A stretch of DNA of 64,000 bases from the NCBI GenBank assembly GCA_002205965.3, contig NADL03000535.1:1-64000 (forward strand). The letters are read 5' to 3'. Position numbers and translations under genes: made by a program. Below the pieces are notes generated by a model. It had not been told where the DNA came from and ran no database searches. It saw only the letters and a list, made by a program, of their open reading frames with translations. The stretch's first letter is position 1. Each line of letters opens with the position of its first letter. Of this stretch, positions 84-32,555 are shown one piece after another. Source of the DNA: Kappaphycus alvarezii (taxonomy: Eukaryota; Rhodophyta; Florideophyceae; Gigartinales; Solieriaceae).

Positions 84-331
84 AACCTACAACGATCCCG
101 CCCCTAACTTCTCCAACCGTCATTTCCAAATTTACTTCCATTTTATCTAGATATTTTTATACTGTATTTAACCCTCTGAATCGACCCCGAATCAAGTCCC
201 TTTTCCCTTTTAGCTTACCTCCTCCTCCAAATTCGCCTTTTTTTGAGAAGAAGGGCGCAAATGCACTATTGCAAAATCCCTTGCAGATTTATTTTACCTA
301 TTCCTAATCTATAGAACCTGCCCCGGGAGCC

Positions 332-339
332 TATTTAAA
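332..339 (+). promoter_or_regulatory. Upstream TATA-like box (TATTTAAA) in the LTR
   Basis: TATTTAAA lies 22 bases before the first ATG of the LTR ORF (361) and about 110 bases before the second ATG (448). It is conserved in the 3' LTR (at about 7867). Its position suits transcription of the LTR-encoded ORF. No transcript start can be proven from the sequence. Confidence 0.45.
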
Positions 340-360
340 CCCCTTTATTCTAAGTTCCAA

Positions 361-1041: not shown

Positions 1042-1169
1042 GAGGACCAAATTAATTGTTAGTTTCTTAAGTATCTTTTGCTTAGAGTATATTGTCCACA
1101 CAAAGTATTTTTATGCATTTCTTAGTATCTTCTGTAGTTTTGTTCGGACTTTAGGGGTAGCCAAAAGTC

Positions 1170-1177
1170 TATATAAG
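1170..1177 (+). promoter_or_regulatory. Downstream TATA box (TATATAAG) of the LTR
   Basis: TATATAAG lies about 310 bases before the LTR end and is kept in the 3' LTR (about 8719). It is a better consensus match than the box at 332 and is placed to start the genomic RNA that serves gag-pol, leaving about 280 bases of R-U5. The assignment rests on position and motif only. Confidence 0.5.
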
Positions 1178-1482
1178 CTGAGTAAACTGCTTCCTCATGG
1201 AGAGGTCAAGCAAGTTGGCAGACAACTTCAAGCCAAGTCCCGAGTAGTAGGAAGTTGAGAGTCAACTTCAGACCCAAGAAAACTTTTTCTTACGCTGGTC
1301 GCAGAGCGTCAGTGGTAGACCCTGCCCCTTTTATACTTGCTTGTAGCTTCTCAACTCTCTTCTATATACACTCCCTTTTGTTCGTTCAACAATACCACGG
1401 CAGCACTTTTGTCGCTCGCAACACCTCCTTCTCAGGGTAATTGGTTCTGAGGATCTTCCCCCGCCGATTTACCCCTATCATT

Positions 1483-1496
1483 TGGTACTCTTGTGG
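1483..1496 (+). other. Probable primer-binding site
   Basis: TGGTACTCTTGTGG starts two bases after the CA end of the LTR. A TGG start complements the CCA tail of a tRNA, as in most gypsy elements. The matching tRNA could not be named from sequence alone. Confidence 0.6.
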
Positions 1497-1569
1497 AGGG
1501 GGTTGCACCCGAGGTATTCGAGTTGAGCAGTAGTAAGGAACACTTCGGGGGGATTTCTTTTCTGTAATC

Positions 1570-4945: not shown

Positions 4946-5216
4946 TAACTGATCACCAGGCACTTAAAACAGCATTCCAAAAGAAGGATGTACATCACCG
5001 CTTGGCCCGATGGCTCGACATTTCGCAGAATATCGGTTTGAAATTGTGTATAGACCCGGACGCAATAATCAGCCTGCCGATTACCTATCCCGCTTGAGGA
5101 CGCACTGATTAAAATGAAAAGCTTCGGAGGACATCGTCGGAGTCGCCGAGTTGCAGTTGCCGAACGATAACGAGTACGAAGCTAATATTCACGGACTGAT
5201 CAAATTCCTCGATGGA

Positions 5217-6400
5217 CTAGAAATGAGAAAGGTTGATCTTGAACACCGAAATTGGGTACGCAGGAATCAAAAGGCTTTTACATTGTGGAATGGGAAACTT
5301 TTCCGGCACACTAAAGCCGGTCCCGACTAGTGGCCCTTTGAAAGAAAGAATGAAGATCTTGAGGACTTTCCATGATGAGCTAGGGCATTGGGATCTCGAA
5401 ACAACCAAACATTCGTAACTGAGAGATTCTGGTGGCCGGTATCCATAAGGACGTCTATAATTCGTGAAAAGCTGCGACAACTGCCAAAATTCACTCCAAT
5501 ACGGAAGTATAAGACAACTCTAAGTTTTCCAGTTTCCGGTCTCTTTGAAACCTTCTCAATTGACTTCGCGGCCCGTTCAAGGAAACTTCTTCCGGAAACA
5601 AATATCTCCTTATAGGGGTGGAACATCTTACTGGATGGCCAATAGCAGTTGCAGTCGAGGAGGCAAATGCTGAGGTGGTACTGAGATTCATCGAAAAAGA
5701 AATAATTGAACGTTTGGTCTTCCAAAAAGGATCATCTCGGATAACGCCCTTTGTTTTACTGCAACTTCACTGCTTCGTTTTTTGGAAGAGAAAGGGATTC
5801 AGCTGAAGACCGTTCTCGCATACGCTCCTATGTCCAACGGGAAAGCGGAGAGGATGATTGGAACCATCAAACGAGCAATATCGAAAACTATGTTGGAGAA
5901 TGAAATCCAGTGGAAGATGCCTTACAAAAGTGTTATACGGCTACGTCGAAGAAGAGGAAGAAATGGACGCTCACCATTCGAGCTAATGTACGGAAGGGCT
6001 CCTAGAATGTTACAGAGAGACATGGAAACAAATATTATCGATGAAGAGAGTAGGGAAGTTGAACTACTGGCCACCGAAGGCTGGAGATCACACCGCGCGC
6101 TAACACAGACAAGAATAAGGATGCAGAACCTGCAGTCAGAACCTTTTCAGTTGGCTCTAAAGTACTTGTAGTACATGGAAAAGCAATGCAGCAGGCTGTG
6201 AAGTGGCCGGCCTTCCAAACCAAGTACTCGAACCCTTGCATCGTCACGGAGGAAAGACACCCGCACTATCAGCTCTGTTCAAGCTCAGGGAAATCAAGGA
6301 GGGCCATCCATGCACGTCGTCTGGTCCCTTACCATCAGAGGCCTGAAGAATTCCTTCTCACAGGACTATGCGCAACCACGGGGCATACTCATCTTTAACT
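5217..6400 (+). pseudogene. int: Gypsy integrase, broken into several frames
   Basis: An HHCC-type zinc region is visible in pieces: HDELGH near 5371 and CDNC near 5473. Catalytic core pieces follow: SIDFAA near 5557, a second Asp region near 5740, and NGKAERMIGTIK near 5836 with the Glu codon at 5848. A chromatin-end segment rich in RPF/YGRAP-type residues then runs to about 6400. At least four frame changes separate these pieces. The family joins element DNA to the chromosome in the nucleus; this copy is inactive. Bases 4946-5216 carry the end of RNase H and the connection region in shifted frames. Confidence 0.82.
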
Positions 6401-6503
6401 ATAGAATGATTCCTATGGGAGGAAAAAGGGCCTGGGAATGGATCATCTCGGTTACGCGGGACTACTACGAACTCCACGTAATCATCCATTTCTACATTAA
6501 TAT

Positions 6504-7490
6504 ATGCCTATGTTTCGTACGTTGAACGGACCATTGCTACCTGAAGAAGATTTCCGACTATTAATAAGAGTTCTATTTTCATTCCAAAACGGAAGGTTCA
6601 CGGAAGCAGGTCCAGAGTTTGTGGAGGTAATATATCATTACTCTATAGGAAGATATGGAATGGTAGCTGCTGGAGACTTGTCGCAAACGTATCTGAATAT
6701 TATCCGTCCAATTTACGTATTTCTCAAGAACAACCAAGATGTGCGACTGAGAGGTTACGCCTTACCCCGGATATGGAATACAGGCTGGTCCCGTATCCTC
6801 TATGGGAACCTTACGTTTCTCCGCCACAAATTGGGAACGTTGGAGGCGGCGAGGATCCTCCTGAAGCAGTGATGATGACCAGAGGAGGACCTTCAGGAGA
6901 CAACAACCCGCCCAGAAGAGGTTCCGGTCGTCCCCGAGAGGACCTCGTGCAGGTCCCAGTACGTCAGGAGCTGGTCGCGGCCATTCATCGGGATCGTCCC
7001 CACAACTTCATCTCTAGCTCTCCTTCACAACCATGCACAGCATACAGTCGGAAGAAGAAGATTATCTTTTTGGCTGCGCAATATCTCGAGGATGCGAACG
7101 ATGCGCAGGTCATTTCTTATTTCATGATAAGCATCTGTTTATTTTTAGGCGCTACATGGACCGCACTTATCTTACGAAGATTCGTTCTTGATGATGCGCG
7201 TCTTCTTTTCTTATCGACATCCATTCCTCCGGCATCTTCCAAAGAGTTTGCATATCACATATATTTTTTCACTCCTGGAAGATTCGGAAGAGTCACGGAA
7301 GAAGAATTTATTCAACCCCACCTCGATGTTATCAAACACTATATAAGGCTATGCTAAAAGTGAGGTACCAGTAATGCGAACCTACTTTTTAGAGCATCAT
7401 ATTGGTAATCAGTTGCATCCGTATCCGTTTGAGAGACCATACATTTTATCAATAAGACAGCGAACACTAACGGAAGCAGAAGAAGAGCAG
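6504..7490 (+). pseudogene. Third reading region downstream of integrase, with an internal repeat
   Basis: Open stretches at 6504-6872 and 6773-7357, with a continuation in another frame to the TGA near 7490, appear to derive from one protein. They join by frame changes near 6745 and 7355. I do not recognise the family. The two halves resemble each other. Unit 1 has YHYSIGRYGMV, then QTYLNIIRPIY and EYRLVPYPLWEPYV. Unit 2 has YHIYFFTPGRFGRV, then QPHLDVIKHYI and NQLHPYPFERPYI. A Gly/Pro/Arg-rich spacer near 6870-6990 lies between them. One hydrophobic stretch (ISICLFLGATWTALIL) precedes unit 2. The position matches that of env-like or accessory genes in some gypsy elements, but no envelope hallmark is seen, so function is unknown. 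Confidence 0.5.
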
Positions 7491-7511
7491 TGACGACCCG
7501 GTACGTTCGCC

Positions 7512-7524
7512 TTGAGGAAGGGGG
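7512..7524 (+). other. Polypurine tract of the gypsy element
   Basis: TTGAGGAAGGGG ends directly at the TGTGTAATAC start of the 3' LTR. It is the expected primer site for plus-strand synthesis, and it fixes the LTR start at 7525 (or 7527 if TGTAATAC is the true end). Confidence 0.75.
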
Positions 7525-9033
7525 TGTGTAATACAAAAAATGGTCCTCCCCTCATTTAATACAGGAAATGGTCCTCCCTTCACGTAATACAAGAAATGGT
7601 CCTCCCCTCGTGTAATCCAGCAACCTACAACGATCTCGCCCCTAACTTCTCCCACCGTCATTTCCAAATTTACTTCCATTTTATCTAGATATTTTATACT
7701 GTATTTAATCCTCTGAATCGACCCGAATCAAGTCCCTTTTCCCTTTTAGCTTACCTCCTCCTCCAAATTCGCCTTTTTGTGAAGAAGGGCGCAAATGCAC
7801 TACTGCAAAATCTCTTGCAGATTTATTTTACCTATTCCTAATCTATAGAACCTGCCCCGGGAGCCTATTTAAACCCCTTTATTCTAAGTTCCAAATGCCC
7901 CCGATCATTTACTCATCACCCCTCTCCCCCACACACCCAAAACACCCTACATTGCATCCCGTTCCCCAACGTCTATCAAAATGAACAACCTTCGCCCCTG
8001 TGCCCCTATTTCCAAAAACCGCCCCTCCGGTCCCATCAATGGCCTTCGTCTCGCCGCCTACGGCCAACCGATGCCGACGACTACATCCGGCGGCAAACAA
8101 AGAAGCAAATCATCGAGTTCGTTCGCCGCCTCTTCATAGAAGAAGAAGCGAGGGAGGTAAGTCCTGGAGAGGCTGAGAAGGTCGAGGAGGAGAGCGGGGA
8201 GTCCTTCGAGGAATGGTTAGCCCCTGAGCTAGTGTACGAGGCTCAGGAGGAGGAGGAGGAAGAGGAGTAAGAGGAAGAGGATGAGGAGGAGGAAGAGGAT
8301 GAGGAGGAGGAAGAGGAGGAGGACGAGGAGGATGGGGAGGAGGACGAGGACGAGGACGAGGAGGATGAGAGAACAGGGGGCATGGAAAGTGTTGGACTGG
8401 TGGGGCCTGGAATGGAGAGTATGGATCAAGTTGTGCCCGCGATGGAACCGGATGGAGATATCTTTAGTAGTCTAGATATCTCCCAGGGGAAATAGAGAGC
8501 TGTGAGCCATTCGCAGATATTTGTGGGGACTGCTTGGACAGCATGGATATTTTAGAGGAGTTGTTTGGATCTGATTTAGAGAATGGGAAATAAGAGGACC
8601 AAATTAATGTTAGTTTCTTAAGTATCTTTTGCTTAGAGTATATTGTCCACACAAAGTATTTTTATGCATTTCTTGGTATCTTCTGTAGTTTTGTTCGGAC
8701 TTTAGGGTAGCCAAAAGTCTATATAAGCTGAGTGAACTGCTTCCTCATGGAGAAGTCAAGCAATTTGGCAGACAACTTCAAGTCAAGTCCCAAATAGTTA
8801 GGAAGTTGAGAGTCAACTTCAGACCCAAGAAAACTTTTTCTTACGCTAGTCGCAGAGCGTCTGTGGTAGACCCTGCCCCTTTTATACTTGCTTGTAGCTT
8901 TCTCAACTCTCTTCTATATACACTCCCTTTTGTTCGTTCAACAATACCACGGTAGCACTTTTGTCGCTCGCAACACCTCCTTCTCAGGGTAATTGGTTCT
9001 GAAGATTTCTTCCCCGCCGATTTACCCCTATCA
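7525..9033 (+). repeat. 3' LTR of the gypsy element
   Basis: This matches the 5' LTR from its TG start after the polypurine tract to the CCCCTATCA end. Its copy of the acidic ORF (from about 7893 or 7981) is disrupted: one G fewer in the GCCTACGG tract, a TAA inside the Glu-coding repeat near 8268, and one G fewer before the AAATAGAG stretch near 8488. Sequence after 9033 (CATGG...) is unrelated to the primer site, which confirms the boundary. Confidence 0.9.
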
Positions 9034-15945: not shown

Positions 15946-16140
15946 GAAGGAACTAGAGGAGCTTCAGACCTCCAGATAGTGCAATTCGGCAGCGAAAAGT
16001 ACAATCCTCGGCTTTTAGCAACGTTTTGGTTGATCGACGGCGAACCGTATCGGTACTAAATCGGTTGCTTGTTTCGGATTTCGAGAGTTTTGGATCCCAT
16101 TCTCTCAGTCATTATAGGTATCAGTTGGAAACAGAGCGTA

Positions 16141-16345
16141 CTAGGGGAAATCTGGGTGTCTCTAATCCATGAAAAATGAGGTCAGCTGTTCAGCGGTAAG
16201 GGGAAAGATTTGGGTGTTTTACTCTTTGAAGGGGAAAAGGTTTGGGTGTTATACTCTTGGAAGATATATACAATCTATCTCTAATCAGTAAAGTGGGGAA
16301 AATGGGGGGTTGATTTACTGTGGTAGATATGTGGGTTGGTACAGT
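16141..16345 (-). repeat. Cluster of non-LTR 3'-end motifs
   Basis: Four end motifs sit together: a GGGGAAATCTGGGTGTC type with a CCATGAAAAATGAGGT tail (16144), two copies of the GGGTGTT-ACTCTT type (16201-16230 and 16231-16278), and a second end type, GGGGAAAATGGGGGGTTGAT (16297) with a GTGGGTTGGTAC tail. The 16144 type recurs at 39138, and the last type recurs inverted at 33925-33980. Confidence 0.55.
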
Positions 16346-17580
16346 AAGGTACCCCTAATTCCCGCCTTTTCAAGCAAACTTGATTGAACGGAGGAGGAAG
16401 GTTAAGTGTATTGTCGTCAGTAGGCGCGATTGAGGAATTCCCGAAAAGCTCCAAGTGATTACTTGGGATTATGAGTAAACGTAACTAGAGCCAGTCTATT
16501 TACCAATGTATTGAGGCTTAAATGCATAGAGGGTCAGTGGCCTTCGTGCGCACTTCTCTAACCATAGATCAGGCGCAACCGGGACAAATTGTAGGATGTT
16601 TTGCTCAGGCCATCACGATTATGTGATGTCGCCTACAGAAAGGTCATGGGCAAACCGTACTTTGGAGGAATGAAAGTGTGACTTACATTGGCTTTGCAGA
16701 ACATTATTGTATTATCGAGGATGACATTAGTTGTGCTACCGGACTACGAATACCGCGCAAGCAAGCTTGTACATACAGAGCACAGTTTCACTGACTCATT
16801 GTGGCCGAGCCAAACTACACTCCTTTGAGAGGCTGTCGGAATCTTAATACCATACCGTTCTGTTTGTTCACTCCGTGGAGAGGTAGATGCATGGAAACAT
16901 GTTTGAATAGATGTCACCCGTCCATAACTTATGATGGCTCTGACAGCAAACCAATTATTGTTGCGGCTATGGCAGCTAGCGCCCATTTTCGTGGTGTAGA
17001 CTTCAGTTAGCAGAACAAATTTATTCTGCTGTATACCTAAATTGGTAGCTTCGATGTTGCCAACTTAGACTGCGTGCACTGCATGACTCTACTTTTGTTC
17101 TTTATATGTCATGTTTTTCAGACTAGGGCCATGTATTTAATTGTACAGCATGCTGCCATAATAGGTGACAACGCAGAAGCAGAAAAGGCGATGTGCCGGG
17201 CGTTACAATTCGCAGTTCCATACTGGATGTTTGAGATGCCGGTCGTCTACATGCAGGCTTTAATAATGAATGTCTCACTTCAATTGATGGGTCCTTTTTG
17301 GAAACAAAGTATCACGTTGCTGAAGCACCCTCCGTTTTGGATGCCACCGTTTTCGTCTCACTCACAGAGTCCTGAAATGGAAAATTGTTAGAAGGCTGCA
17401 CTTTCATTGAGGTTCTATCTGCGCTGTTTACTTTGTCGAACGCATAACATGTAGCAAAAATTCCGATTTCTCTCAGTTGGTTATCCATAATGAGTTTACA
17501 TAGTATCTAGCCCACCAAACGGGATACAGACTCAGTTTACTGCACAAAGAACTGTCGACGTGAGGGTTACCTACATGTTG
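16346..17580. other. Unassigned 1.2 kb upstream of the first poly-Asp gene
   Basis: Open stretches at 16801-17010 (69 codons) and 17074-17391 (105 codons, with a hydrophobic MTLLLFFICHVF start) are the longest. Neither shows a recognisable domain or a paralogue in the window. They may be non-coding or parts of an unknown gene. Confidence 0.25.
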
Positions 17581-17587
17581 TATATAA
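17581..17587 (+). promoter_or_regulatory. TATA box of the first poly-Asp/Cys gene
   Basis: TATATAA lies 105 bases before the ATG at 17686. The paralogue has ATATAAA 102 bases before its ATG. Both leaders are pyrimidine- and CA-rich with short CTCTC or CCTCC runs. Confidence 0.6.
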
Positions 17588-17685
17588 CACATCCCCGCCC
17601 CTCCTGGTACACCAAACACTCTCTCTCCCAAATCTCAGTTCATCTCTGACTCGCATTCTCACCGCAGCACGAAAAGACTTCAAGG

Positions 17686-18288
17686 ATGTCTCGCTTGTTC
17701 TTCTTCGCTCTCGCCCTTATGGCGTTGCTTCTCACAACCTCCGCTGAGATTCCCACATCAACCAACACTATTCGAGCTGCAGACGCCCAGCTTGCCAAGC
17801 CTCTGTCCCTTGGTAACATCGTTCGCTCCGGTGATGATGACGACGATGACGACGATGACGACAACGGTGGCAGTAATGGTGGAGGAAAGACCATTTCTAG
17901 GACAGTTTTCTTCTGTGATGCTATTCGGGGCCTAGGGTTCCTCCGTCGCTGCCGCTTGTGTGTCAGGAGTTGCCTCCGCCGTTTTGGCGTCACTATTGAA
18001 AAGAAGATTCCTATTGGCAGCGGTGGCAGTGATGACGACGATGACGACGACGACGACGACGATTGCGATGATGACGATGATGATGATGATGATGACTACA
18101 GTGGTGGTTGTAGAGGGAAAACGAAATTCATAACGCGCACTAGAAGGGTTTGTGGTAGAGGTAATCGTCGCTGTTTCTGGTGCTCTCGTAGATGCCGTTT
18201 CCGTTTTGGTGCTGCTAGAGTGGTGGTTACTGGGGTCGGTGGCAATAGCGGCGGAGATGACGATGATGATGATGATGACAGGCGTTGA
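17686..18288 (+). CDS. Secreted poly-Asp/Arg-Cys modular protein, copy 1
   Basis: This is an intact single-exon frame of 200 codons. Residues 1-20 are a signal peptide (cleavage likely after TSA). Residues 21-49 form a spacer with RAADAQLAKPLS. Asp blocks lie at 50-59, 116-126, 128-137 and 191-198, the middle pair interrupted by one Cys at 127. Between them sit two Arg-rich modules: C77-x11-C-x2-C-x3-C96 followed by LRRFGV, and C156-x6-C-x2-C-x3-C170 followed by RFRFG. Each module is preceded by an S/T-R-T motif. There are ten cysteines and the end is Arg-Arg. The paralogue at 31953 keeps length, Cys count and Cys spacing. The protein is probably extracellular and disulfide-bonded. Cationic modules shielded by acidic spacers could be an antimicrobial precursor, a metal or calcium binder, or a wall-matrix protein; these are inferences. 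No known family is recognised. Confidence 0.88.
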   Translation: MSRLFFFALALMALLLTTSAEIPTSTNTIRAADAQLAKPLSLGNIVRSGDDDDDDDDDDNGGSNGGGKTISRTVFFCDAIRGLGFLRRCRLCVRSCLRRFGVTIEKKIPIGSGGSDDDDDDDDDDDCDDDDDDDDDDYSGGCRGKTKFITRTRRVCGRGNRRCFWCSRRCRFRFGAARVVVTGVGGNSGGDDDDDDDDRR

Positions 18289-21200
18289 AGAAACCGTAGC
18301 AGAAGTCCTGGGGCGGAAGCAGGAATGTGAGCTCTCGGTAGATGATTAATGACACCGATAGACAAAGTTTTGTATTAGTCTTAACGGAGAGCCCCATTTA
18401 TGTTTCGTCTCATGCCATCCAGTAAACACTGATTCCATTTTCATCCAAGGGATCCACATCATTTGCTTCTGATTAAGTAATCTATCCAAGCAAGTTCATG
18501 AAAGCATACTATCGGTACAAGGATACGTTTGTTTCTGTTACAACAACATTAATGGCGTAAACATTTTTCGTGGCGTATTCCTATGCCCTGTTCTGATTTC
18601 GGATAAACTCTGCACGCTTTATCCAACATTAAGTATTTCATGGTTTCCAACCCGGCTACAAAATTTTCAGAGCGAGTTTGGAGATAGAGGAACACGAGGG
18701 GTTCATTTAATGTGACGGATATGCTGGCTGAAACCGATTCAACTTTTATGATAGTGTAAACATCGAGACAGAGATGCCCATTGTTAGTATTTATAGGGAC
18801 GCGCTTTGACAAAAAGAAAGTTGGTGTGATCAGAAAGCAAGTCAATACCGGATTAAATCAGTGCTACATTGTAAGAAAAGTGTAATGAGCGACCATAAGC
18901 GAGCAGAAATAGTGTGATTAGAAGCTCTCACTCCCGCGACTATCTGTTTCTACGTTTTCTATGATCTCTCAAGGTAAATATCTACTGAGGAAGACCATTT
19001 GAATGCAGAAGAAGACATTGCCACGCTTACCTGGAACAATTATCTGGAAGGCATATGGATTTTGCAATGTTCTGGCAGTATAATCGTGTACATTATTACT
19101 ACCGACCTTTTAAATAGTTCAAATCGGAGTCCTGCCGTGACGCCCCTGAGTGATAGCTAATTTATGGAATGATTGACAGATATCCTTGCACGGAAAGAGC
19201 TGGAGGACTGAGAGGCAAGTTCGACCAGGTATTGCAAACCGTCAAAAAAGAGGTTTTCGCATTAGAACTTTGACACATACTACTCGACCATTTAAGATTA
19301 TTAGAAAGTGGTTTGTGAGTCTTCCAATATTACTCCTGTGTAGGGAACCACCGAATGGTCCCGGTCTTTTCAAAAATCTTTCTGAATGAATAGCATGGAG
19401 AGGCCCAGTGTGGTTTTGTTGTTGTTGTAGGTGAGTTGCATAACCTTCAAAGACAAACGAATGGCTTTTCTGATTGGATCTCATCGTAATTATTATTTAG
19501 ACTGCTAACTACTGTCAAACAATACCGATACTTTCTCTCACTTGTTATTGAAAGCATTGGTGTTACCGTATTTTACTTTACGGCACCCTCAATCGGTTTT
19601 TTAACAAATAAAGACATTGAATCCTGTTAGTATTAATACTTGTCACAAAGGCAGTTATTATTGGGTAGCTTGCACATATTCGAATTCATCTACGGTATTA
19701 TGTTGACTAAATCAACTTTACTTTCAATTGCTAGTAGGGCTACCGCTTGGATTCAACAGCCGCTCTTTTGTCGTATTTAACCCCGCCTCTAAAATTCCGG
19801 TCTAAATAATCCTTCTGTCTGGACTTACAACTCTCTAGATTTTTTCTCAGCTTTATTCGCTTAAGAATTATCGATTAGCTCTCTTGCAACTACTGTTAAG
19901 AATTTTGTAGTAGTTACAGTACTTTTGATTGAGGTAATTTCTCACACGCTACTCTGTCCTTCTATTGTCATTAATTTTCGGTAAAAATATAATAGCGATA
20001 TAATGTTTCAACCCTCGGGTCCTATGTATTAATCTTCTGTATTCTCAAGAGAGGACAAGTTTACAAAGTTATCAGAAAATTGTAGTTTATTGCATTGTAT
20101 CATTTATATCCACGTAATTTTTTCTACATTTAAATTCTCTATCTGAGTATGTGGTTCCGTTAACTGTTTTAGTACTGCATGAAAGTCACAAAACATGGCT
20201 CAATTTGAAGCCCTTGTCTCTTTTATATATCCACTTCGAAGTCTTTCTTTTCTAAAAGTAAATTTATTCTCTCTCGACAAAAAGGGGCGCTTCTTCTGCA
20301 GGACAGGTAATACTTTTCTATCTTTTAGTAGGTGTAGATACTGTGTCATACTTCTGAAATAAATGGAATATTTTCGGACCAGTAATGGCTACCTTTACTC
20401 ATATATTTCATGAGACTCATACACTTCAATTCTCTGCACAGATGAACGTTGAAGTTTTGCTGCTACGATATTGGGCTCAGGCAAAAATATTTGCCATATA
20501 TTCTATTCTTTGAGCTCATTCAGAACCAACGTAATCACAGTTCGCGAGGAACTTCCATGGGAAATTCTTTCGTTATATTTTTTAATGAAATTTTGTGAGA
20601 ATTTATTTTGTGATGTTCTTCATTCATTGCAATACCAATTCACATAAATAATTACTACTCTACTAAGTTACTTCTATTGAACATGTGTAACTATACAGTT
20701 CGAAACTCTAAATATCCTTCTAGCCCAAATGTATGACATTTTCATTCTCATTCAAAATGCTCGTAAATGGGTCAGTTTTTCATTTGCACTATCTTTATAT
20801 ATTTATGAATTCTAATATCTAAAATTAGATTGTTAAAACGTTACACTTATTATTTGCCCTATAATTTTTCCAAGCATTGTTTATGAAATTCGGTTTCCGG
20901 GGTTTCAAAGGCATCATGAATATCTGTACCTGGTGGAAGGCGAGGGTTTCTACAATGTGTGGATCGTAGTAAAGATGAAAGTTTCCACTCAAATTCACAT
21001 CATAAATGGTGTTAGCCAATACATAACAAATCTCTCCTTCCAATGATACGAATATACACCGCTTTAGAATAGAATTTTACACACAATTAAGGGAATAAAT
21101 CATAAACCAGCATCATATATAGAATTTCGCTAGCAACGAAGAATGAAATATATTTTCAGGACTGAATAGACTCTTCAAAAGGGTATGTACATTTTTGTTG

Positions 21201-24200
21201 CCTCTGACTCTATTTGTTATATTCAAACATTCATGAAATGCACATCTTCATACCTTTTTCCACTTCTTGTATGGTATTTTCTGTGCAGAACATATCTAAT
21301 TTAATATAAACTCATAATAACTCCTTTGTTTATCAAATATAACCATTCGTTGCAAATTTCGTAACAGCAAAGAAGTCACAATAAAAGACTTTTTTTTAAA
21401 TACTTTCGTTAAAGTAGCAGATCCATACTAACCAAATGATCCACAATACTGAAGAGACTAATTACAGTTACCTTGCTGCAAATTAATGTTTTTGTGTAAA
21501 TTTCTCAGTGAAAGTGAAACTTTCTTCAAACTTCTGACCGTTTAAAATTTGATATATTTTTTGCTTTTTTAGATTCTGAGGAGTCAAGGACTCTTTTTAG
21601 ATCTTTCGTATCTTCAATGACTCAGTTTATCGAAAAGAATAAGTGTCAATCTTGAAAGGATCGTTGAACAAAATCTATAAATTTCAAATTTTAGATAGAT
21701 AGTTTAATCTATTTTTTCGTCGTTATGTTTAAAACAAGAAGAGAGATAAGATCGTTTAACATGGGAATATCATCAAATTGAATTTACTTCTGCTCCCGTC
21801 AGGAGATATGCCAACTTTTCTGTATAAATGATTTAGCCATTAGCACGCGTGAAAATATGTTGACCAACTCCGATTTATATAATTTACTGCATAAAAACAT
21901 GAACAATAGGTAACGTCAAAAAATAATTTTCAACTGATTTTGAGCCTAAGATATTTCCTTCAAGCTCAAGATTATGAAATTTCTACATTATAATGATAGT
22001 CCTGTTTTACTACTCTCTTAATCCCAATAATATGAACTTTTTCATTAGTACAATTTTCAGCTTTGTGCACACTTTAATAATCTCAGATGAGCTTAGTTCG
22101 TTCAATATGTAATAAAGTAATTATTACTTCCTCATTACTAATCTGATCTAGTCCCCTCAAATTATTAAAAAAATGTAATCCTTGAAACTCATTTGAAAAT
22201 ATTGTCGTCGGTATTTAGCATAACTGAAACAAAAAATGCAGTTTCATTTTCTTTCGGAGGTTTAAAAAATTGCGCTCCTGGCTACATCATCGAAATAGCC
22301 AGGGGCAATTTACCCCCACTATTTTTGGTATTCATTCTAATGCTTAAGAGTATTAAAAGTCAACAGCAAAAAAATCCCATTTCTGAGTGAAAAGGAAACA
22401 TTGAGTTGGAAAACATTAGAACTACCTAAAGAGGTCCTTATTTTAGGGTGACGTTGAAATGATACTAGCCTCATACTCTGTAGGGTCAAACTCACTCACT
22501 TCAATTCTCAACGAAACATGTAGCCTCACTTCAGAAAATGATATTTCTTTCCAAAAAATAAATCAACCAAATTTCTCCTGAAGAGAATTAATTTTTCTAT
22601 TTAATCTCTTCAAGATTGCCGAGAAATTTTTAAACTATACTTAATTGTTTTAGAATTAAGCCCTCAATATAGCAAGTATATCCTCGAAATACCTGCGGTC
22701 TCTTCAAGATTGTGGTGAACTTTTTAAATGAATTTGTTTTGTGTAGATGGAACTTAGCGAGTTTTTTTCTCCATGAAATCATATCTCTTTTTGTTCTATT
22801 CCAACTAATTACAATTTAAATTAATCTAAAATACCTGGCTGAATATTTAATTCACCGTGATCAAGTATAAATGTTTCTAACTTTTTATTATTGTGGTGCG
22901 GTTGGAGTAATTGAATATATCCTGACTGAGATATATACCATACAGATTACACTTCATCGTTCCTCTTACTAATAATTCATAACGTTCAACTCCTGAACTA
23001 CACAAAAAGTTATTACTGCAAAACAAAGCGGAAAAATTACTTCTTTTACTAGGAGTGATATTTTTAGAAAAGATCATCAAAATATACGTATTTTCTATAA
23101 ACAATGTTAATTATTGAAAATGATGATTGTATTTAAATATTTTAAGTACATTAGTCTGAGATTCTTTATCGTTTCAAAAATATGTTTAAGATCGCTTTCT
23201 TATTTCTTATCTACCTTATATTTGTTTTGGAAAGGGAAATTAAATGAAACCATACCATTTAATCAATAGAATATTGGCAACTTTTTCGTTCCATAAATTA
23301 GGATTGTTCTAAATGAATTGAAAGAATTGGATAGGAAAGATGAGGGGGAAAGATGTGAGAAGACAGTCCAACATAAATCGAATAAAAAACTAAAAGCATA
23401 TTCGGATATGCTATGCCCTTATTCTATTAAACTTAAATATATAAATATAGAGAAACTATATGGAGCGAATAAGTTGCTGAGACTTTAGGACTGGATTCAA
23501 TTTTGCAAGGAACCGAAAATACCTGTAGTTAAACGTTTCAAACACATCCTGATTCGCAGAGAGTGAGGCTGAAGTATTTTTTTTCACTTTTACTAGTTAC
23601 TCTCAACTATTATAACCCGGAAAATATTCCTTTTTTTACTGACTCCTTGGAATTTACTGTATCATTGTTTTATCTTGTCCCTGTAACATTTCTTTCATGA
23701 CTTCAATCCATTTCTTATTTCCATGTAGCACTGGCTTTACACCGGCAAGAATTTGGGTGTACCGAGGCAACATTTAGGTCCTTCTCCATCGATCTGTACC
23801 CATTGTAGTATTAAGTGAATGGAATTTGATGTTGCATAGTATGCTTTGGCCGAGTTGAGTGTCGATAAGTGACATAAGGATAAAAGAGTAAAATACATAT
23901 GTGTGTCTATAAGCAGTTATTTGAAATTAGTCAAACGAAATAGGTCAAACTGTTGCAAACAGAGCAATAATTTTGAGTTTAATCTTGAATTGAACAGAAA
24001 AATCTTCATTTAATGAAACTATTGTAATCCCTTTAGTTTCTATCACATAACATGTAGTCGGTTTTGCGAATTTTTCTATCTGTATTTATTTCCGCCTAAA
24101 CCTTACCGGGAATTTCATTCTTTGTAGTATGACGAAACTTTCACGATTTTCAGTTCCGTTATTAGGCTTTTAAACATTCAGAATAAATGCGAACTAATAA

Positions 24201-24839
24201 ACAATTGTTAGCGTAGATTAACTTGTACGGCATAAATGAATTTGAGAAAATCAAATAAAATAGCCACATGCTCAGCGACGAAATTGCTCAGGGAAAGAAC
24301 GGAGTTGGTTTGCGAGGAGTGTTGCAAAAGGAGAGAATTCTATGAACTTGCATCCAAACTATTTTCCAAGATTTTTAGTACAGGAAACTTGGCATTTAAC
24401 TCAACTGAAAAGCAATTTGTACCTAACTCAGTAAACAGTAATATTGGGAAAGTTCTAGGTGAGACATGAAGACTGACAAAATAGTTCCAGATACGGCTCA
24501 AAGTTCTAACAGAAATTCTAATTTGGGAGACGGGTATTTCTCCCCTATTTTCTTTTTTTGCAACTGGAGAGATTTATTAGTACTGCTCCAGTATAGTGCG
24601 CAGTGGTTACTGTACATGATGCTTTTTGTAATTGATTCCTACGAAGTGTCTAGCTAAATCCCACTCCATTCAAATTTATCAAATATTTCATTCAAAAAAG
24701 TGCCTAGTTCCCTTGCTACTATCTTAGATTGTTTTATCCTGGATCCAACTTGAAAGGATTGGAGATATTGGTATACTTTTGCCTCACAAATGGCAGGTAA
24801 ATGTAAATTGGAGCATTGTGAAAATTGAAAAAAAATTTT
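18289..24839. other. Gene-poor, increasingly AT-rich stretch
   Basis: No frame longer than about 98 codons and no recognisable domain is present. From about 19500 onward the sequence is visibly AT-rich with many homopolymer runs. The longest open stretches (18549-18845 minus, 24236-24469 plus) look like chance frames. No RNA gene, array or tandem repeat was noticed. Confidence 0.5.
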
Positions 24840-25390
24840 ATTCTCTATCCCGGTGTCCTACAGTGATGCTGAATTGTGAGGCAATATTTTTTATTGGGGC
24901 CCACAATTTTTATTTATTCTGAATCATCAAGCAGTAATTTGTTCCATTTTAAACTGACCGTATTTTATGTTGAATTCAGTGTGAAATAATTTTTATGTCC
25001 TACAGTTCGCTTTTCGTATTTGACAGGCTATATTATTGCATTTCCGCTCCCAACAAATAATTATCTGGATGAGTGCTAACCTCGAAAATACTGCAATAAT
25101 TATTGCTAAGCCTGAACAATGTCTACCAAAATTATTGTAAGGCTTACCTGATTTTTGTAGCAGGTTCACCCTAGTTTAGAGCATAAGTAGTCCTAGGTTT
25201 TTAGAAATACTTTTTTATATCCTTGGGCCATCGAAATATTCCCCTCAATCACCTATCATTAAATTTGGTTTTCTATTCATTATCCATTTTAAGTCCAAAT
25301 ATGGCATTTATTTAGTTATTCAAAATATAATTATTTACTTCTTGGATCTAACTTTCCCAATTATTTTGCATTGATGGGCCCAGGATGCAT
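24840..25390 (+). repeat. LTR plus leader of a copia-like element, left inverted arm
   Basis: 24840-25196 and 25292-25385 are the reverse complement of 26838-27284 with only scattered differences. The shared leader ends in ATGGGCCCAG, the gag start, so this arm is LTR plus leader in plus orientation. The plus-strand gag stops after a few codons. About 95 bases at 25197-25291 have no counterpart in the right arm. Confidence 0.75.
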
Positions 25391-25399
25391 GTTTTGATG

Positions 25400-26850
25400 T
25401 ATTGATATTGTTGGAACAAATGTTCCTATAGAAATGAGTTTTAATAGGGTCAAATGACTGCATATATATTTCTGGGTACATAACAATGATGACCGTGATC
25501 AATCAATGTTGTAGAATCGATTAGATAAGTTGCGGACTTGAACGCGATGCGGTTGCCCGTCATATGAACAATATTTGATTTTCTTGTGATATTTCTTCCA
25601 AATAACACACTGTTATGATCCACTGATTATTACATGCTTCATTTTAACCTGATTTCCATTGTCTGAAACAGCTGATAAAAACATTGAACGGATCCCTCTT
25701 CTTTTTTCGCTTGAGTGGGCGCCATTTCCGTATTTCCAGAAGGGTGTGTCCTTGATACAATCAGGAAGTTCATCAATAATTCCATTTCATTCCGGTAAAA
25801 TAAAATTCGAAAGTGCTCGTAATTCAACAATCCCCATTTTACTCTACCGTGCTCCATCATCAAGTAACAGAACTGGTAAAAAATCATTTGACAGAGAATC
25901 AAGCACCGGTTTTACCATATGAAATGTTACAAAACCAGAATCATTTTTGTCTTTGACATTTTCTGCGTTTTCCATTTTAGATGATGAGTCTTTGTGATAT
26001 TTTTTCCTACCCTTACATTTATCGTTTTCATAGGCCCAATGTCCAATTTTTCCACACCGGTCACAATTTTTCTTTGCCTTGAGAGCAGCAAAGTCTTCAG
26101 GAGATAATCTTTGCTTATTATTTTTCTTGAAATTTTTCTTTTCTCCGTATGAAATATTTGATTGACTCGAAAAGGTATATTTTTTGAGAATTTCCATACA
26201 TTTGATTTCTATTTTTGTTTTATCACATGCACGAATAATAGATGTTTTTTCTGAATATTTGATTAATTCCAGGATTTTCCTTTTCCAAATCGTCTTCTTC
26301 TTCATGCTTCGGAGAAGCAGCAGCCAAAATTTATACTCGCTGGTTTGAATCAATTTTGGAATTAGCCAGAAGTAAAAAAGATATCAGTGCTTCAGGTAAT
26401 TTCAAAGTACCAGTAGATGAATGAAATCGGGCAATATGAGCATCAAACCGTGATTCAAAAATTTTGAAAGACTCATTATTACCACAATTAGTGTGCAATA
26501 GATGTAAGAATTTTTGGAAATGTATATGATATAGAGGGTAGAGGATCCACCTTATGAATATCGTTAGCAATCGCTAATGCACCATTTTCAGACTGAATTT
26601 CTTTGTCTCGATATTTCTTACAAATATCAAGAGCTCCTCCAAATAATTGTGATTGTAGGAAAAGACCATTTACTGCCTTAGAAACCTTACTAGAATTTGA
26701 TACTAGTATTAAATCGTGGACAGCTTTCCATTTGTAAGCAGCATCAAAAAATCTTTCTTGAGGTCCTTTACCATCCGTCCAAGAAGCCGTGCGAATATCC
26801 CATGAGAATTTCGGCCTTGAAGGAATTTCGGGACGATCTGGGCCCATATC
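25400..26850 (-). pseudogene. Copia-like gag and protease, minus strand, frameshifted
   Basis: From 26847 leftwards the protein starts MGPDRPEIPSRPKFSW and reads a gag of the copia class (GALDICKKYRD; FLHLLHTNCGNNESF), with frame changes near 26500 and 26340. A zinc knuckle near 26080-26020 reads CDRCGKIGHWAYENDKC, with six rather than four residues between His and last Cys. A protease site reads LLLDDGAR (near 25860), where most copia proteases have D-S-G-A. A further stretch includes ATYLIDSTTLIDHGHHCYV near 25500. Sequence beyond about 25400 is lost. The protein would form the element's particle; the copy is dead. Confidence 0.75.
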
Positions 26851-27290
26851 TGAAAAATAACTGGGATAGTTAGATCCAAGAAGTAAATAATTACAACTTG
26901 AATAACTAAATAAATTCCATATTTGGACGTACTACTTATGCTCTACACTAGGGTGAACCTGCTACAAAAATCAGGTAAGCCTTACAATAGTTTTGGTAGA
27001 CATTGTTCAGGCACAGCAATAATTATTGCAGTATTTTCGAGGTTAGCACTCATCCAGATATTAATTTGTTGGGAGCAGAAATGCAATAATATAGCCTGTA
27101 TAATACGAAAAGCGAACTGTAGGACATAAAAATTATTTCACACTGAATTCAACATAAAATACGGTCAGTTTAAAATGGAACAAATTACTGCTTGATGATT
27201 CAGAATAAATAAAAATTGTGGGCCCCAATAAAAAATATTGTTCCACAATTCAGCATCACTGTAGGACACTGGGATAGAGATTAAAAAAGT
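26838..27290 (-). repeat. LTR plus leader of the minus-strand copia-like element, right inverted arm
   Basis: This segment directly precedes the minus-strand gag start, so it is that element's 5' LTR and leader. It is the inverted counterpart of 24840-25385. A more diverged third copy of part of the LTR lies at about 50840-50940. Confidence 0.75.
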
Positions 27291-27310
27291 TGGTCAATAT
27301 TTACATCCAC

Positions 27311-27690
27311 GGCCTATAAAGTGCAGGCTCTTTTTTAAGTAAGCACTTTTTTGTTAAAAGTTGTGACGACGAATGGTCCCATAGACGAACAATTTTGACG
27401 AGTGCCATGTCGTCCGGCTTCACAACGCCGCTCCAACAGCAACACCATCCCTGTGCGCCATTAAGTGGCAAGGGGTTACGGTAATATCGACAACGGAATC
27501 GATGAGATCATTGCAGCGAGAGCATACCGGTCGCGACATGTCGATCTGCAGGAGAAGCAAGCTAGATGAGGGGAACTGGTCGCGTCCGCATCCGACAACA
27601 CGTCGCACGGGGCGCAGGCCGGGAACAGCAAAAAATAGAGAGCTTCGAAGGAGTTGAGTTGGGCTCGGAGAAAAGTATAAAGAAGGGAAT
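27311..27690. repeat. ~370-bp dispersed repeat, copy 1
   Basis: The segment matches 34575-34945 in the same orientation. Shared blocks include CGACATGTCGATCTGCAG, GCAACACCATC and TTTTGACGAG. It begins within about 25 bases of the copia-like LTR end, suggesting that element inserted at or next to it. GC content is higher than in its surroundings. In one plus-strand frame both copies can encode NGIDEI and RHVDLQ, so it may be a fragment of a coding sequence. Confidence 0.6.
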
Positions 27691-28290
27691 GGCATGTTAA
27701 GTCCTGTACACCGCTCTTTGATCATATTACTAATGCATAGTATTGTTTGAATCGAATCTTGGGCTACATTCAGTGGTAATCTCATGACAGTAAAGATTGC
27801 TGGACTCCTAGCTACTAGCAGGAATGGCTCTTTTCGTGTTTGTATCGCTTACAGTAGGGGCTACTCTCTGGAAATACTGCTAAGAAAATATTCTGGTCTT
27901 TGCCCTTGTCGAGCTTGCCTCTTTTTACGTTGCATAGCTTCCGATCTCGGAGAAAAAAGAGGAGAGCCAGCCATAAGAAATATTACCTTGGAAGTACATG
28001 AACAGCCCCCAGAGTATTTCATTACATTAACACTAGCCTCACTTGACTTAAAGATTCGCTGCCTAGGACAAAATCCGAAATGCATCGGGAAAGAAGAAAA
28101 AATATTCAAATATGCTGCCGTGGTCATTGCCGCATTGTAGGAAAGGGAAGATATTACCAATCGAAGTTCATCAAAAATGATGATTGTCTGGGTAAGGGCA
28201 AACTTTCTTGGAACCTATCCTTTGCATGATAAAATATAACAGTTCACCCTATGCTCCACTGGCAATAGACTAGCGCAAACGTTCCCCCGG
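27691..28290. other. Unassigned 0.6 kb
   Basis: An open stretch of 118 codons (27784-28140, plus) starts MTVKIAGLLATSRN and contains a Cys/Arg-rich patch. No domain is recognised and there is no paralogue. It may be chance coding or an unknown small gene. Confidence 0.25.
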
Positions 28291-28291
28291 T

Positions 28292-28475
28292 AAGAGAAAA
28301 AATATTTGGGTGTTTTACTTTTGGAAGATATGTTCGATCAATCCTAAAGTTTTGCAGACTACCGCAAGCGACTCAAAAGGGCATGTTGACACAGTAGGGG
28401 GAGAAACGACGCTCCCTAAGAGTCCACCGTAAGCCAGCCATCAAGCAGGCCGTATTAGACATTGCTTAGAGAAGC
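28292..28475 (-). pseudogene. Non-LTR element 3' end, copy C
   Basis: The plus strand carries the end motif (AATATTTGGGTGTTTTACTT then TTGGAAGATATG at 28311-28342), a degraded TTTTGCAGACTACCGCAAGC tail, and then GCCAGCCATCAAGCAGGCCG. The last part is the minus-strand C-terminal coding remnant also seen at 59420 and 54790. The orientation fits an element running leftwards and ending at about 28292. Confidence 0.55.
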
Positions 28476-31400
28476 TTCGTGTATCAAAAAGTAATGCAGT
28501 GCTTGATGCGCGATGGTATTGAAAAGGTGTACTAGTTTCGCCGTTGGCGTGAAAACAAGATTAAACACGGAACGCTGACTTGTGAAAATTAGGGCAAGAC
28601 TACCAGGTAGGCGGACATTTCACAGTTGAGACAGTAGGTATCAGTTGCGTAGGTAGGACGCGGTAACGGATTGATTTTGAAAGAACTCTCAACAGCTGCA
28701 ACTGGTATCGCCACCAAATTGGAGATTGCAAGCCAATAAAATTGCTCTAAAGATTTTTGACGAGAGTGAACCACTTGATTTCCTCAGTTACTGGGTGACG
28801 TGTCCATGTTTTCCTGGCAAGGCGGCAGGAGCTGGTGCCTTCCAGAATTAGAAAGTATTGGATATTGACTTTTTAATACCGCACAGTACAGTATATCGTT
28901 AGATTGCACGTTTCCTGTCGAACCTTGACTTGTATCTCTACGAAACCGAAATTCTCATTTTCATCGCGCTGACACTGACGTACGTAACAGCTTCTGTGGT
29001 TCTGCCATCACTCGATGCAACGGTTGTAGTCCCCTGGTGCTTTTGCAGTTTTCGCTTGCCAAACTGCGGGCCTCTGATATTCATTCAGCGTATTTCTCTG
29101 CAGGATTTCTACCCGGTATTAAGAAATGCAGTACATGATCAAGATTTCGCCATCGTCCATAATTCATAATACAAGTCTTGATATTGCAGAGTGGAGCCCA
29201 GATATTACGAATAGGTTACTTTGTGAACCGGGGGGGGAGGGGGATGATAGAGTAGTTTACATCGTCGTCTGACACTTCTAGAGGTGGGAATCTAAACGGA
29301 GTGGATCCAATTGTCAGTTGTTGTCTTAAGTACTGAACCTCCCACTAGAAGACGATTCATAATGTTGCCCACGCCGAAAAGGTACGCAAGGACCAGAGAT
29401 TCGTTGACCAGGTTGTAATAACGGGCAGGACCAGGACCGTGAGCCTTCAAACCGGTAAGCTCGCAGTGTGGCACCCCATGATACTCTCCCTAATCACGTA
29501 CTCATCTATGAGACGCGGTTAATCGCTAACCTGAGTATAGATTAGTTTTCAAAGTGGCAGGCTATTCCCTTTCCAAGACACATCAGGTTTCTAGTATCGT
29601 CGTAACCAGCTTGCTTGTTGATTAAGCTACTAGCTTCTTTGTAGTAGAATTAAGGGAAGCATACGAGAGAATCTACTCAGGGGCTTTCTGGGTTAGACTT
29701 CGACACTTGGCGAAGGATGCTTTGGTGTGATGTACACTATATCAAGTGACACTGGTGTTCTAGGCATTCGCATCTGCTCATAATCTATAGATAGAGGGAT
29801 GGATTCGAGTATATACCTTCAAAGGGTAAAATATCGAAAGCTTTCCCCCACCTATAGACTCTGACAACTGTAAGGGCCTTCTAATGCCCCTCGAAAGTAC
29901 GTAGGAATAGCCCCGTTCTCTCTACCCTTTGGTTTTTCTTTACTAAAATCTTAAAACATTACGGTTACCTGGACGTTTCTTGCTGCCTTTAGTGCCTCGG
30001 ATCGGATATATCTTCCAAGAGTAAAACACCCAAACGTTCCCCTTTAGTGCCTTAAACAGCGGCGATCGAGGCCTAGTTTCTCACTATAATCTTAATCAGG
30101 CGTAAGGAAAGGTGTAATCATTTGAATACAAACGACATGGAGAACGAAAGTGACGTTAGCATCACAGCATTGTGCAAATGCCTGAGTTCTGTAAGTGTTA
30201 CGAATGGGCGGCCGTGCAAGGGTCACACACGTAGGTGTTATTTTGTAATCGTATGAGAAAACGTGATATCCTGAATCGCAGAAAAGGTCCCTTGAGAGCA
30301 TGGGGTTCAGGTAGGGCTGCCAGTTATAGAAAAGAATTGCTTGGACGTAGAAACGTGAATTGGGATGAATGTATGTCATACCACAGGAAAAGGTTGAGAC
30401 TATCCGATTCAAATTTAGCGCAACAATTCTTGTATGTGGCATAGTGCGTCAATATTCGTGGACTGCTGTGAGACATGGCCTGATTCAGAGATAGCCCTGC
30501 ATCCGAAATCTCATATTGAAGATTGATATTTCTAATTTGAGTACCGCGCTGAACCTTGTTGAATAGCTACAGTTTGAGTCGTGCCCCAGATCTGATAAGC
30601 AATAAAAAATGACCTACTGTAACAGCAGTTTCTCATTTGACTTTTCGCAACCCACGAATTGGTTTCGAATCATTTGCAAAAATGAAACCCAGAAGAACCG
30701 TATTAACTTTGCGAATAATTATTTGTGGGATGCCACTCATTATTCTATATTGTGGTCTAGTCTAGATACGACCCTCCGCACTAGTTGCTACACTACTGTA
30801 CATTACCACCCAGAAAGCTATCTTGCAGTTAAAGTCGACGACCAACGATGATATTCTGAATTTATTTGTACTTTTCTAGTTGTCAGGAAAGAATGGATCT
30901 TTACTCAACTATAGATGGACTCTGTAAGGGACAGACCCAAAAGACGAAACCCTAGCAGTTTGGACGAGTACTGTCGAGTATTAGGTCTTGTTTGGGACGT
31001 ATTGCACTCCTTCCTCCAATTACAGTTTGCCTTAGTCAATCAAAACATTTCTTTGAAAAGCGTCGTGCATATAACGACCTCATACTCTTTTATTAAAAAT
31101 AGGGTTATCATGCGCCGTGAAATTTTATGACATAGCAGAGGCTCGTATTACTTGACGTGTAAATAAGACCCAAGCTCATGTCCAATTCACGAGTGAGGGT
31201 CTGGTCGTTTGCTGCTTTAAGATCTCCAGGGTTGTGCTCAAAATATCTGGTTGGGACTGTTTGAAATGCTTGCGAGAAACCCTGTTGTGCTCTTTGTTTC
31301 CGGTGTTGCAGTGACTGCAGTGTTCACTATGCCTTACCCAAACCGACAATTCAAATCTAAGAGCCCACGAAATCTCAATCCCAAGAGTAACAGTAGTCCA

Positions 31401-31850
31401 TTTCAAATTGCTTGAATCAAAAGTGGATACCACGCAATTCTGGGTTCGGGTAAATCACCCAGTACACCGATTTTCTCGTAGATGCTGAGGATTCCTGGAT
31501 CAAACCGGTTCAGTCTCTACATTGATGCAGCTACTCCTTTCGGTCAGCACAGGATAGCTAGCTCTGAATTGTAACCTATAGAGCCTCGCTGTGTGTTCTT
31601 TCCTTCGAAAGGGCTCATGTTTGCTACTGAGACGCATTAATGCTGAAATCACACCAAGCACACATATTCACAAGCTGGCCATCCTTAGCCTTTTAGCGGC
31701 ACCGATATGCTTTACATACCATAGATATCACCATCATAAAAACAATGAATTTCTCAAGGAAAGAGTAACCCAGAGAAATCCAGGCATATCGAAGAAAGAT
31801 TTGTGCCTGGAAATGGACTTTTCTTGGGTAGGGAATAGTCGATGTTCTCG
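28476..31850. other. Unassigned region with two isolated non-LTR end motifs
   Basis: At 30001-30044 the end motif occurs in the opposite orientation, and a weaker copy lies at 29812-29855 (TATATACCTTCAAAGGGTAA then GCTTTCCCCC). A G-rich run sits at 29230-29243. The open stretches (28930-29169 plus; 30092-30442 minus, 116 codons) show no domain. No gene can be supported. Confidence 0.35.
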
Positions 31851-31857
31851 ATATAAA
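31851..31857 (+). promoter_or_regulatory. TATA box of the second poly-Asp/Cys gene
   Basis: ATATAAA lies 102 bases before the ATG at 31953, the same spacing as in the paralogue. An in-frame ATG at 31857 overlaps this box, so it should lie upstream of the transcript. This supports 31953 as the real start. Confidence 0.6.
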
Positions 31858-31952
31858 TGAGTGACTTTTCCTCCTCGGTTTCATCCTCCTCCTTTGACCC
31901 ATCACCTCCTTCTCATATCACATCAAGCCCAACCGAACACTACCCAGCCAGA

Positions 31953-32555
31953 ATGTTTCGTTTCCTGTTCTTCGCTCTTGCGCTGCTTGCGCTAGTTCTC
32001 AGCACTTCAGCAGCCTCTGTCGAATCCGACGTTACTCTCCGCGCTGCAGATACCCAACAATTGAAGCCCCTCTCTGCTGACAACGTAATCCGTACTGGCC
32101 GTGGTGGTGACGATGACGACGATGACGACGACGACGACGATGATGACAGCGGAAGGGGTGGCAGAACTATCACCAGGACGGTGCTAGCATGCGATCGCAG
32201 TCGAGGTGTCAGGATTTTCAGACGTTGTCGCACGTGTGTGCGCACTTGCCTTAATAGGTTCGGGGTCACTGTTACAGAAAGGGTCCGTGTTGGTGGCGGC
32301 AGAGGTGATGACGATGACGATGATGACGATGATGACGACTGTGATGATGATGACGATGATGATGATGATGACGATGGGGGATGCAAGAAGAGGTTCATCA
32401 TTCGTACAAGGAGAATCTGTGGTCGTGGAAACCGCCAGTGTCTCCGGTGTACGCGTGGCTGCCGCAGTCGCTTCGGGGTTCGCAGGGTTGTTACAACGGT
32501 TGTGGGAGGTGGCAGGGGTGACGATGATGATGATGACGATGACGACAGGCGCTAA
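31953..32555 (+). CDS. Secreted poly-Asp/Arg-Cys modular protein, copy 2
   Basis: This is an intact single-exon frame of 200 codons, the same length as copy 1. The start at 31953 gives a signal peptide (MFRFLFFALALLALVLSTSA) aligned with copy 1. The 32 extra upstream codons (from 31857) would bury that signal. The spacer has RAADTQQLKPLS. Asp blocks lie at 53-65, 119-129, 131-141 and 190-198. Module 1 is C80-x11-C-x2-C-x3-C99 then LNRFGV; module 2 is C156-x6-C-x2-C-x3-C170 then RSRFGV. A single Cys at 130 splits the central Asp block, another lies at 144, and the end is Arg-Arg. Ten cysteines and both spacings equal copy 1, while many other residues differ. That suggests constraint on fold and charge pattern. 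Function is unknown; the candidate roles are those listed for copy 1. Confidence 0.9.
   Translation: MFRFLFFALALLALVLSTSAASVESDVTLRAADTQQLKPLSADNVIRTGRGGDDDDDDDDDDDDDSGRGGRTITRTVLACDRSRGVRIFRRCRTCVRTCLNRFGVTVTERVRVGGGRGDDDDDDDDDDDCDDDDDDDDDDDGGCKKRFIIRTRRICGRGNRQCLRCTRGCRSRFGVRRVVTTVVGGGRGDDDDDDDDDRR

Follow-up and report, generated by a model that had tools for sequence, protein, structure and literature searches.

Aspartate-rich shell proteins bind calcium, the acidic pro-pieces of defensins keep the peptide inactive, and in tube-worm cements opposite charges sit largely on separate proteins, the negative charge coming from phosphoserine. To our knowledge, sequences are available for few of the extracellular matrix proteins of red seaweeds. 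Here we describe a family of putatively secreted proteins from the red alga Kappaphycus alvarezii in which blocks of pure Asp alternate with cationic four-Cys modules. Two members, gene 1 and gene 2, lie in the first 64,000 nucleotides of contig NADL03000535.1 (assembly GCA_002205965.3), hereafter called the window. In the libraries searched, the family matched no described one; it appears to be a new combination among the known kinds of secreted protein, the Asp-rich and the cationic Cys-rich. The unusual part, as far as the sequences tell, is that one layout occurs in two families without detectable kinship.

Both genes lie on the + strand, and each consists of 200 codons plus stop, open without an intron (gene 1, 17686..18288; gene 2, 31953..32555); their products are 66% identical. 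The order of parts is the same in both: signal peptide (by reading), pro-region, Asp, module A, Asp, Cys, Asp, G-G-C, module B, Asp, R-R and stop. In gene 1, the signal peptide read from the sequence spans residues 1-20 (17686..17745), with cleavage expected after TSA. Beyond the pro-region lie Asp block 1 (17833..17862), module A (17863..18030), Asp blocks 2 and 3 around Cys127 (D11-C-D10, 18031..18096), module B with a leading Y-S-G-G-C (18097..18255), and Asp block 4 with the terminal R-R (18256..18285). The corresponding parts of gene 2 are the signal peptide, likewise read from residues 1-20 (31953..32012), Asp block 1 (32109..32147), module A (32148..32306), Asp blocks 2 and 3 around Cys130 (D11-C-D11, 32307..32375), module B with a leading G-G-C (32376..32519), and Asp block 4 with the terminal R-R (32520..32552). 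The Asp blocks are 10/11/10/8 residues long in gene 1 and 13/11/11/9 in gene 2, and the cysteines of the modules are spaced C-x11-C-x2-C-x3-C (A) and C-x6-C-x2-C-x3-C (B) in both. The original prediction, made from the letters of this DNA, had described two intact single-exon genes of 200 codons with a signal peptide, four Asp blocks, ten cysteines and identical Cys spacing, and all of this is borne out, the N termini being signal-like by reading.

The acidic residues are almost entirely Asp (41 and 48, versus 2 Glu in each of gene 1 and gene 2), and Gly-rich stretches link the Asp blocks to the modules. The second of the two central Asp segments is bounded by two cysteines (C-D10-YSGG-C in gene 1, C-D11-GG-C in gene 2). 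The pro-regions of the window genes end in I-V-R-S-G or V-I-R-T-G-R-G-G.

Among about 5.8 billion proteins a sole relative, P0001, was found. It was recovered by gene 2 alone (2174 candidates), by a nine-sequence profile and by a profile in which the Asp blocks were shortened to three residues; the two profile searches scored the best 7984 and 7991 word-sharing candidates, respectively, so that distant relatives may escape. The last of these searches is one of two forms in which the Asp-masked search suggested by the original prediction was made, and it returned P0001 only; the other form, with the modules alone, is given with the Pfam results below. P0001 is 51% identical to gene 2 over 54% of the latter (BLASTP; 53% in the alignment) and shares with the window genes four Asp blocks, a Cys within the central Asp stretch, linkers rich in Gly, G-G-C, a D7-R-R end and the x11-x2-x3 spacing of module A. 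Across the three proteins, Asp runs are 7-13 long. P0001 differs in the spacing of module B (x5-x2-x3), in Lys for part of the Arg, in Glu adjoining the central Cys and in an extra Cys in the signal region. Moreover, the R-F-G motif predicted after each module is present in both window genes and is replaced by R-L-G in P0001. Net charge over the whole protein is -12 for gene 1, -14 for gene 2 and -3 for P0001 (from residue 36), whilst the modules, 48-56 residues long, carry +9 to +16 (A/B: +9/+14, +12/+15 and +16/+14, respectively).

Searches of family libraries gave no convincing match; the original prediction, too, had recognised no described family. In Pfam, genes 1 and 2 reached at best 15.7 bits against a curated cut-off of 27.4, and P0001 and two proteins of the second family described below (L059 and L062) gave nothing above cut-off; with the modules alone, one of three A members had a weak match (E 0.38) and none of three B members had any. 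The best NCBIfam match (E 0.09) fell well below cut-off. The best PHROGs match was E 0.019 (gene 2), with no match for gene 1 or L059. Against PDB sequences (threshold E <= 0.001), the best values were E 0.13 for gene 2, 0.084 for the Asp-shortened profile and 0.42 for L059. A viral or prokaryotic origin was also considered and rejected: neither the full profile nor the module-A profile had a confirmed relative in viral or prokaryotic genome contigs. Because Asp-run patterns dominated the full-profile scans, these test the point weakly; the module-A scans, which are fairer, gave 35 pattern places each in the prokaryotic and viral contigs, with none confirmed. Among open-licence papers, queried with a few terms in titles and the starts of abstracts, a protein of this kind was not found. 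The available part of PMC8554166 contains 'aspart' zero times and 'cysteine' once, as a reagent.

The two modules of each protein also resemble one another. Profiles of module A and module B (three rows each) aligned over 47 columns (P 2e-6, probability 89.5%). When residues were shuffled, the A/B score observed was reached in 0/2000 trials for each of gene 1, gene 2 and P0001; with the Cys positions held fixed, the counts were 1, 0 and 11 of 2000. Modules A and B are thus, judging from sequence similarity, a real internal duplication, in agreement with the original prediction. In the common unit, two strand-like stretches enclose a Cys, the C-x2-C-x3-C motif and R-[FL]-G; after them come a linker rich in Gly and then an Asp block. 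Two low-confidence AlphaFold2 models (nine and six rows; mean pLDDT 46 and 44) place a helix over C-x2-C-x3-C in both modules, and the second shows strand-helix-strand twice. Foldseek with the first model found no matching chain.

To take a census of the family we searched the genome (336,021,096 bases, 884 contigs; the window is C531:1-64000 in our numbering) at the protein and DNA levels. Where the original prediction saw just a paralogous pair, there are at least 12 family gene places, the copy counts being lower bounds: two on C531, three each on C873, C877 and C88, and one on C492. This count leaves out the weakest match (C754, E 0.02) and 13 short poly-Asp DNA matches. Eight of the 12 are intact, namely the two window genes and the six on C873 and C877, whilst those on C88 and C492 are broken by stops and frame shifts. 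The six intact copies on C873 and C877 are near-identical to gene 1, giving seven in all; outside the Asp blocks these differ at 0-2 synonymous and 0-4 nonsynonymous positions, too few for any inference on selection. Asp run length differs among the family copies. The pattern D4-C-D4 occurs at nine places in the genome, all nine in this family (two in broken C88 copies), against zero in the control. Asp runs of six or more were absent from all six frames of the window outside genes 1 and 2. Elsewhere, runs of Asp codons resembling the Asp blocks of gene 1 occur at C866:46706, C56:455614 and C678:387514 and 358775, with further such runs on C645, C226, C608, C488, C826, C13 and C662.

A segment around gene 1 (about 15954..21696, + strand) recurs whole or in part, in both orientations, on C873, C877 and C88, in pieces of 0.3-5.8 kb at 80-97% identity (those below 250 bases are not listed). 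C88 holds relatives of both window genes in pieces 80-91% like the window; it has the appearance of an older duplicate of this locus whose three gene copies have all decayed. We considered whether the segment might be mobile cargo. An end near 21696 is common to four copies; however, segmental duplication is preferred, because the opposite end differs in reach from copy to copy and inspection of the ends by eye showed no terminal repeat. Two repeats lie in the window. A long terminal repeat (LTR) retrotransposon occupies window positions 1-9033, with direct repeats at 1-1480 and 7539-9033 (95%) and protease and reverse-transcriptase frames between them; a 97% relative of positions 1139-6962 adjoins a gene-1 copy on C877. 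An inverted repeat at 24817-27305 has 375-base arms (94%) around a frame whose zinc-knuckle match is just below the Pfam cut-off, and sequence like these arms is found again close to copies of gene 1 on C873 and C877.

Divergence between gene 1 and gene 2 records purifying selection over a long time, because synonymous sites are saturated while dN is 0.32. Outside the Asp columns there are 95.2 synonymous differences at 120 sites (pS 0.79, saturated and uncorrectable) and 85.8 nonsynonymous differences at 327 sites. The N-terminal part has a dS of 1.53 and a dN of 0.343, whilst the modules have a saturated dS and a dN of 0.315. In the Asp columns, synonymous differences number 17.5 for 17.7 sites, with a nonsynonymous change of 0.08. 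Asp codons are mixed and interspersed, GAC:GAT being 19:22 in gene 1 and 22:26 in gene 2. The mixed codons, together with the selection, rule out a simple microsatellite or a shadow open reading frame (ORF). On the opposite strand, the complement of the Asp codons reads as Ser-rich ORFs.

TATA boxes lie at a near-constant distance upstream. That of gene 1 (TATATAA, 17581..17587, + strand) starts 105 bases before the ATG and that of gene 2 (TATAAAT, 31852..31858, + strand) 101 bases before the ATG at 31953; for L059 and L062 the distances are 104 and 105 bases, and as these two are near copies the four cases amount to about three independent ones. Within the window, 8 of 2283 ATGs on both strands, including those of both genes, have TATAWAW starting at -105 to -101. 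A TATA box is absent from the roughly 250 bases upstream of the broken C492 copy. The frame of gene 2 is open further upstream to an ATG at 31857, giving a 232-residue reading. This is unlikely because that ATG overlaps the TATA box, and the 200-codon start appears the likelier.

The D5-R-R-stop signature had 13 matches in the genome and none in the reversed control. Eleven belong to the family above (three in broken C88 copies) and two to a second family of Cys-richer proteins, L059 (C482:139753-140322, + strand) and L062 (C610:929697-930260, - strand). Both are intact, of 190 and 188 codons, 95% identical, and the sole two places found in the genome. Their layout runs from a signal-like N terminus and a pro-region through D5, a 36-residue Arg/Cys module, D10-11 and a Cys module with a Lys-rich tail to D7-R-R. 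The central Asp block of L059 lies between cysteines (C-M-D11-C), and each protein has a net charge of +8. Between L059 and gene 2, BLASTP gave no alignment at E <= 100. Kinship through the pro-region was also examined and not supported, as the similarity did not exceed that of shuffles (411, 1068 and 1902 of 3000); nor was that of the P0001 pro-region to gene 1 and gene 2 above chance (1704 and 368 of 3000). The two families thus seem to share layout only, with no sequence kinship detectable. Both families alternate in charge, have an Asp segment flanked by Cys and cationic modules rich in Cys, and end in D(n)-R-R; linkers rich in Gly and a strict spacing of the cysteines are features of the first family. 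The layout may have been shared through convergence, or through ancestry with the modules replaced. More speculatively, one might see here a general red-algal design for accommodating highly cationic secreted proteins within a polyanionic wall: modules of different ancestry would be set between pure Asp blocks, the D(n)-R-R C terminus would serve to mask charge and to signal sorting or assembly, and the Cys-closed Asp loop would be an ion-triggered switch, though we hold this to be doubtful.

Our preferred interpretation, put forward tentatively, is that these proteins are secreted block polyampholytes whose Asp segments mask the cationic modules until the calcium-rich, sulfated wall is reached. 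Each protein would carry a cationic module twice, the module probably being a strand-helix-strand unit in which one helix bears three of the four cysteines, with pure Asp segments between and flanking the two copies; the second central Asp segment could form a disulfide-closed acidic loop. On the way through the secretory pathway, pairing between the Asp blocks and the Arg-rich modules would hold the protein in a soluble, harmless state. Once the protein is outside the cell, the Asp blocks would be titrated by sea-water calcium and magnesium, and the modules, now free, could attach to the wall's sulfated galactans; the result would be a matrix protein held by ionic contacts and pinned by disulfides. 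Consistent with this are the seven intact near-identical copies of gene 1, expected if dosage matters, the Gly-rich joins, which suit a multidomain protein, the saturated synonymous change with low dN, the layout kept in P0001, the near-constant TATA distance, and a second putatively secreted protein without detectable kinship that has the same alternation and end. Several points weigh on the other side. The structure models are poor and support the fold without establishing it, and some of the C873 and C877 copies may be haplotype or assembly redundancy. Dibasic sites near the Asp blocks of gene 2, P0001 and the second family would permit cutting, and binding of calcium and galactan is argued from chemistry, not homology. 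Moreover, the charge ratio is not conserved, running from -12 in gene 1 to +8 in the second family over five proteins (-12, -14, -3, +8, +8). This lack of strict balance argues against simple neutralisation being the whole story; of the original proposal that the Asp blocks neutralise the modules, the alternation of acidic blocks and cationic modules stands and the exact balance does not.

Almost as likely is one of the three roles put forward in the original prediction (the others being a calcium or metal binder and a self-assembling matrix protein), namely that the proteins are precursors of cationic disulfide peptides, the modules being antimicrobial peptides held inactive by the Asp blocks and freed by proteolysis. 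A signal peptide and Arg- and Cys-rich modules flanked by acidic blocks would suit such a role, and the Cys/Arg modules of the second family fit too. Leaving aside the terminal R-R, dibasic sites no more than six residues from an Asp block number one in gene 2, three in P0001 and two each in L059 and L062. However, gene 1 has none, so the cut site is not conserved, and many of the dibasic pairs (7, 6 and 13 in all for gene 1, gene 2 and P0001) lie within the modules. In addition, dN in the modules is not above that of the N-terminal part, which does not indicate fast diversification, and Pfam families and PDB chains were unmatched. Less probable is a calcium or metal binder, in which the Asp blocks, one perhaps a Cys-closed loop, would buffer divalent ions or control mineral formation whilst the modules serve as scaffolds or wall anchors. 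The retention of Asp with Glu almost absent, despite saturated synonymous change in the Asp columns, speaks for it, but the conserved cationic modules would be left unexplained, the second family has more positive than negative charge, and the host alga is not known to be calcified. A vacuolar reserve of nitrogen and sulfur, rich in Asp, Arg and Cys and sorted via the pro-region, would agree with the composition and with pro-region endings that look alike by eye in the second family, P0001 and both window genes; N-x-[IV]-R ahead of the first Asp block resembles the plant NPIR signal. Yet the pro-region likeness is no greater than in shuffles and a reserve has no need of strict Cys spacing, which makes this improbable. 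Least credible of all is a low-complexity accident, that is, simple-repeat ORFs or decaying genes without function: Asp run lengths do vary and 4 of 12 places are broken, but purifying selection, mixed GAC/GAT codons, the same layout in P0001 and TATA boxes at a near-fixed distance speak against it.

Two other features of the assembly were noted. A trypsin-like protease is encoded on the minus strand of the window (55904-57145) in two frames, which match the beginning and the end of the Pfam domain; a short intron is probably present, and the C-terminal stretch is hydrophobic, like a membrane anchor. Proteins with a phycobiliprotein domain (Pfam Phycobilisome, above cut-off) are found on nuclear-looking contigs at C74:183737-184090, C669:240962-241318 and C837:1087743-1087970, and a piece of one of these places matches allophycocyanin and phycocyanin chains in the PDB (best E 4e-13), as would be expected of a red alga.

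The family provides defined, conserved, multicopy candidates for holding or defending the sulfated galactan wall, and the common D(n)-R-R end offers a handle with which to find more such proteins. Set beside described systems, it resembles the Asp-rich mineral matrix proteins Aspein and Asprich in its predicted secretion and long Asp runs; we know of no alternating cationic four-Cys modules in those proteins. With defensin-type precursors it shares a putative signal peptide, an acidic part and a cationic Cys-rich part, but it differs in its four pure Asp blocks and Gly-rich linkers and in the lack of a Pfam match, and its x11-x2-x3 spacing is unlike the defensin spacings known to us. The coacervating cement proteins of tube worms are secreted and likewise carry blocks of opposite charge; here, in contrast, both charges are in one chain, possibly as a natural block polyampholyte with charge switching encoded in its sequence.

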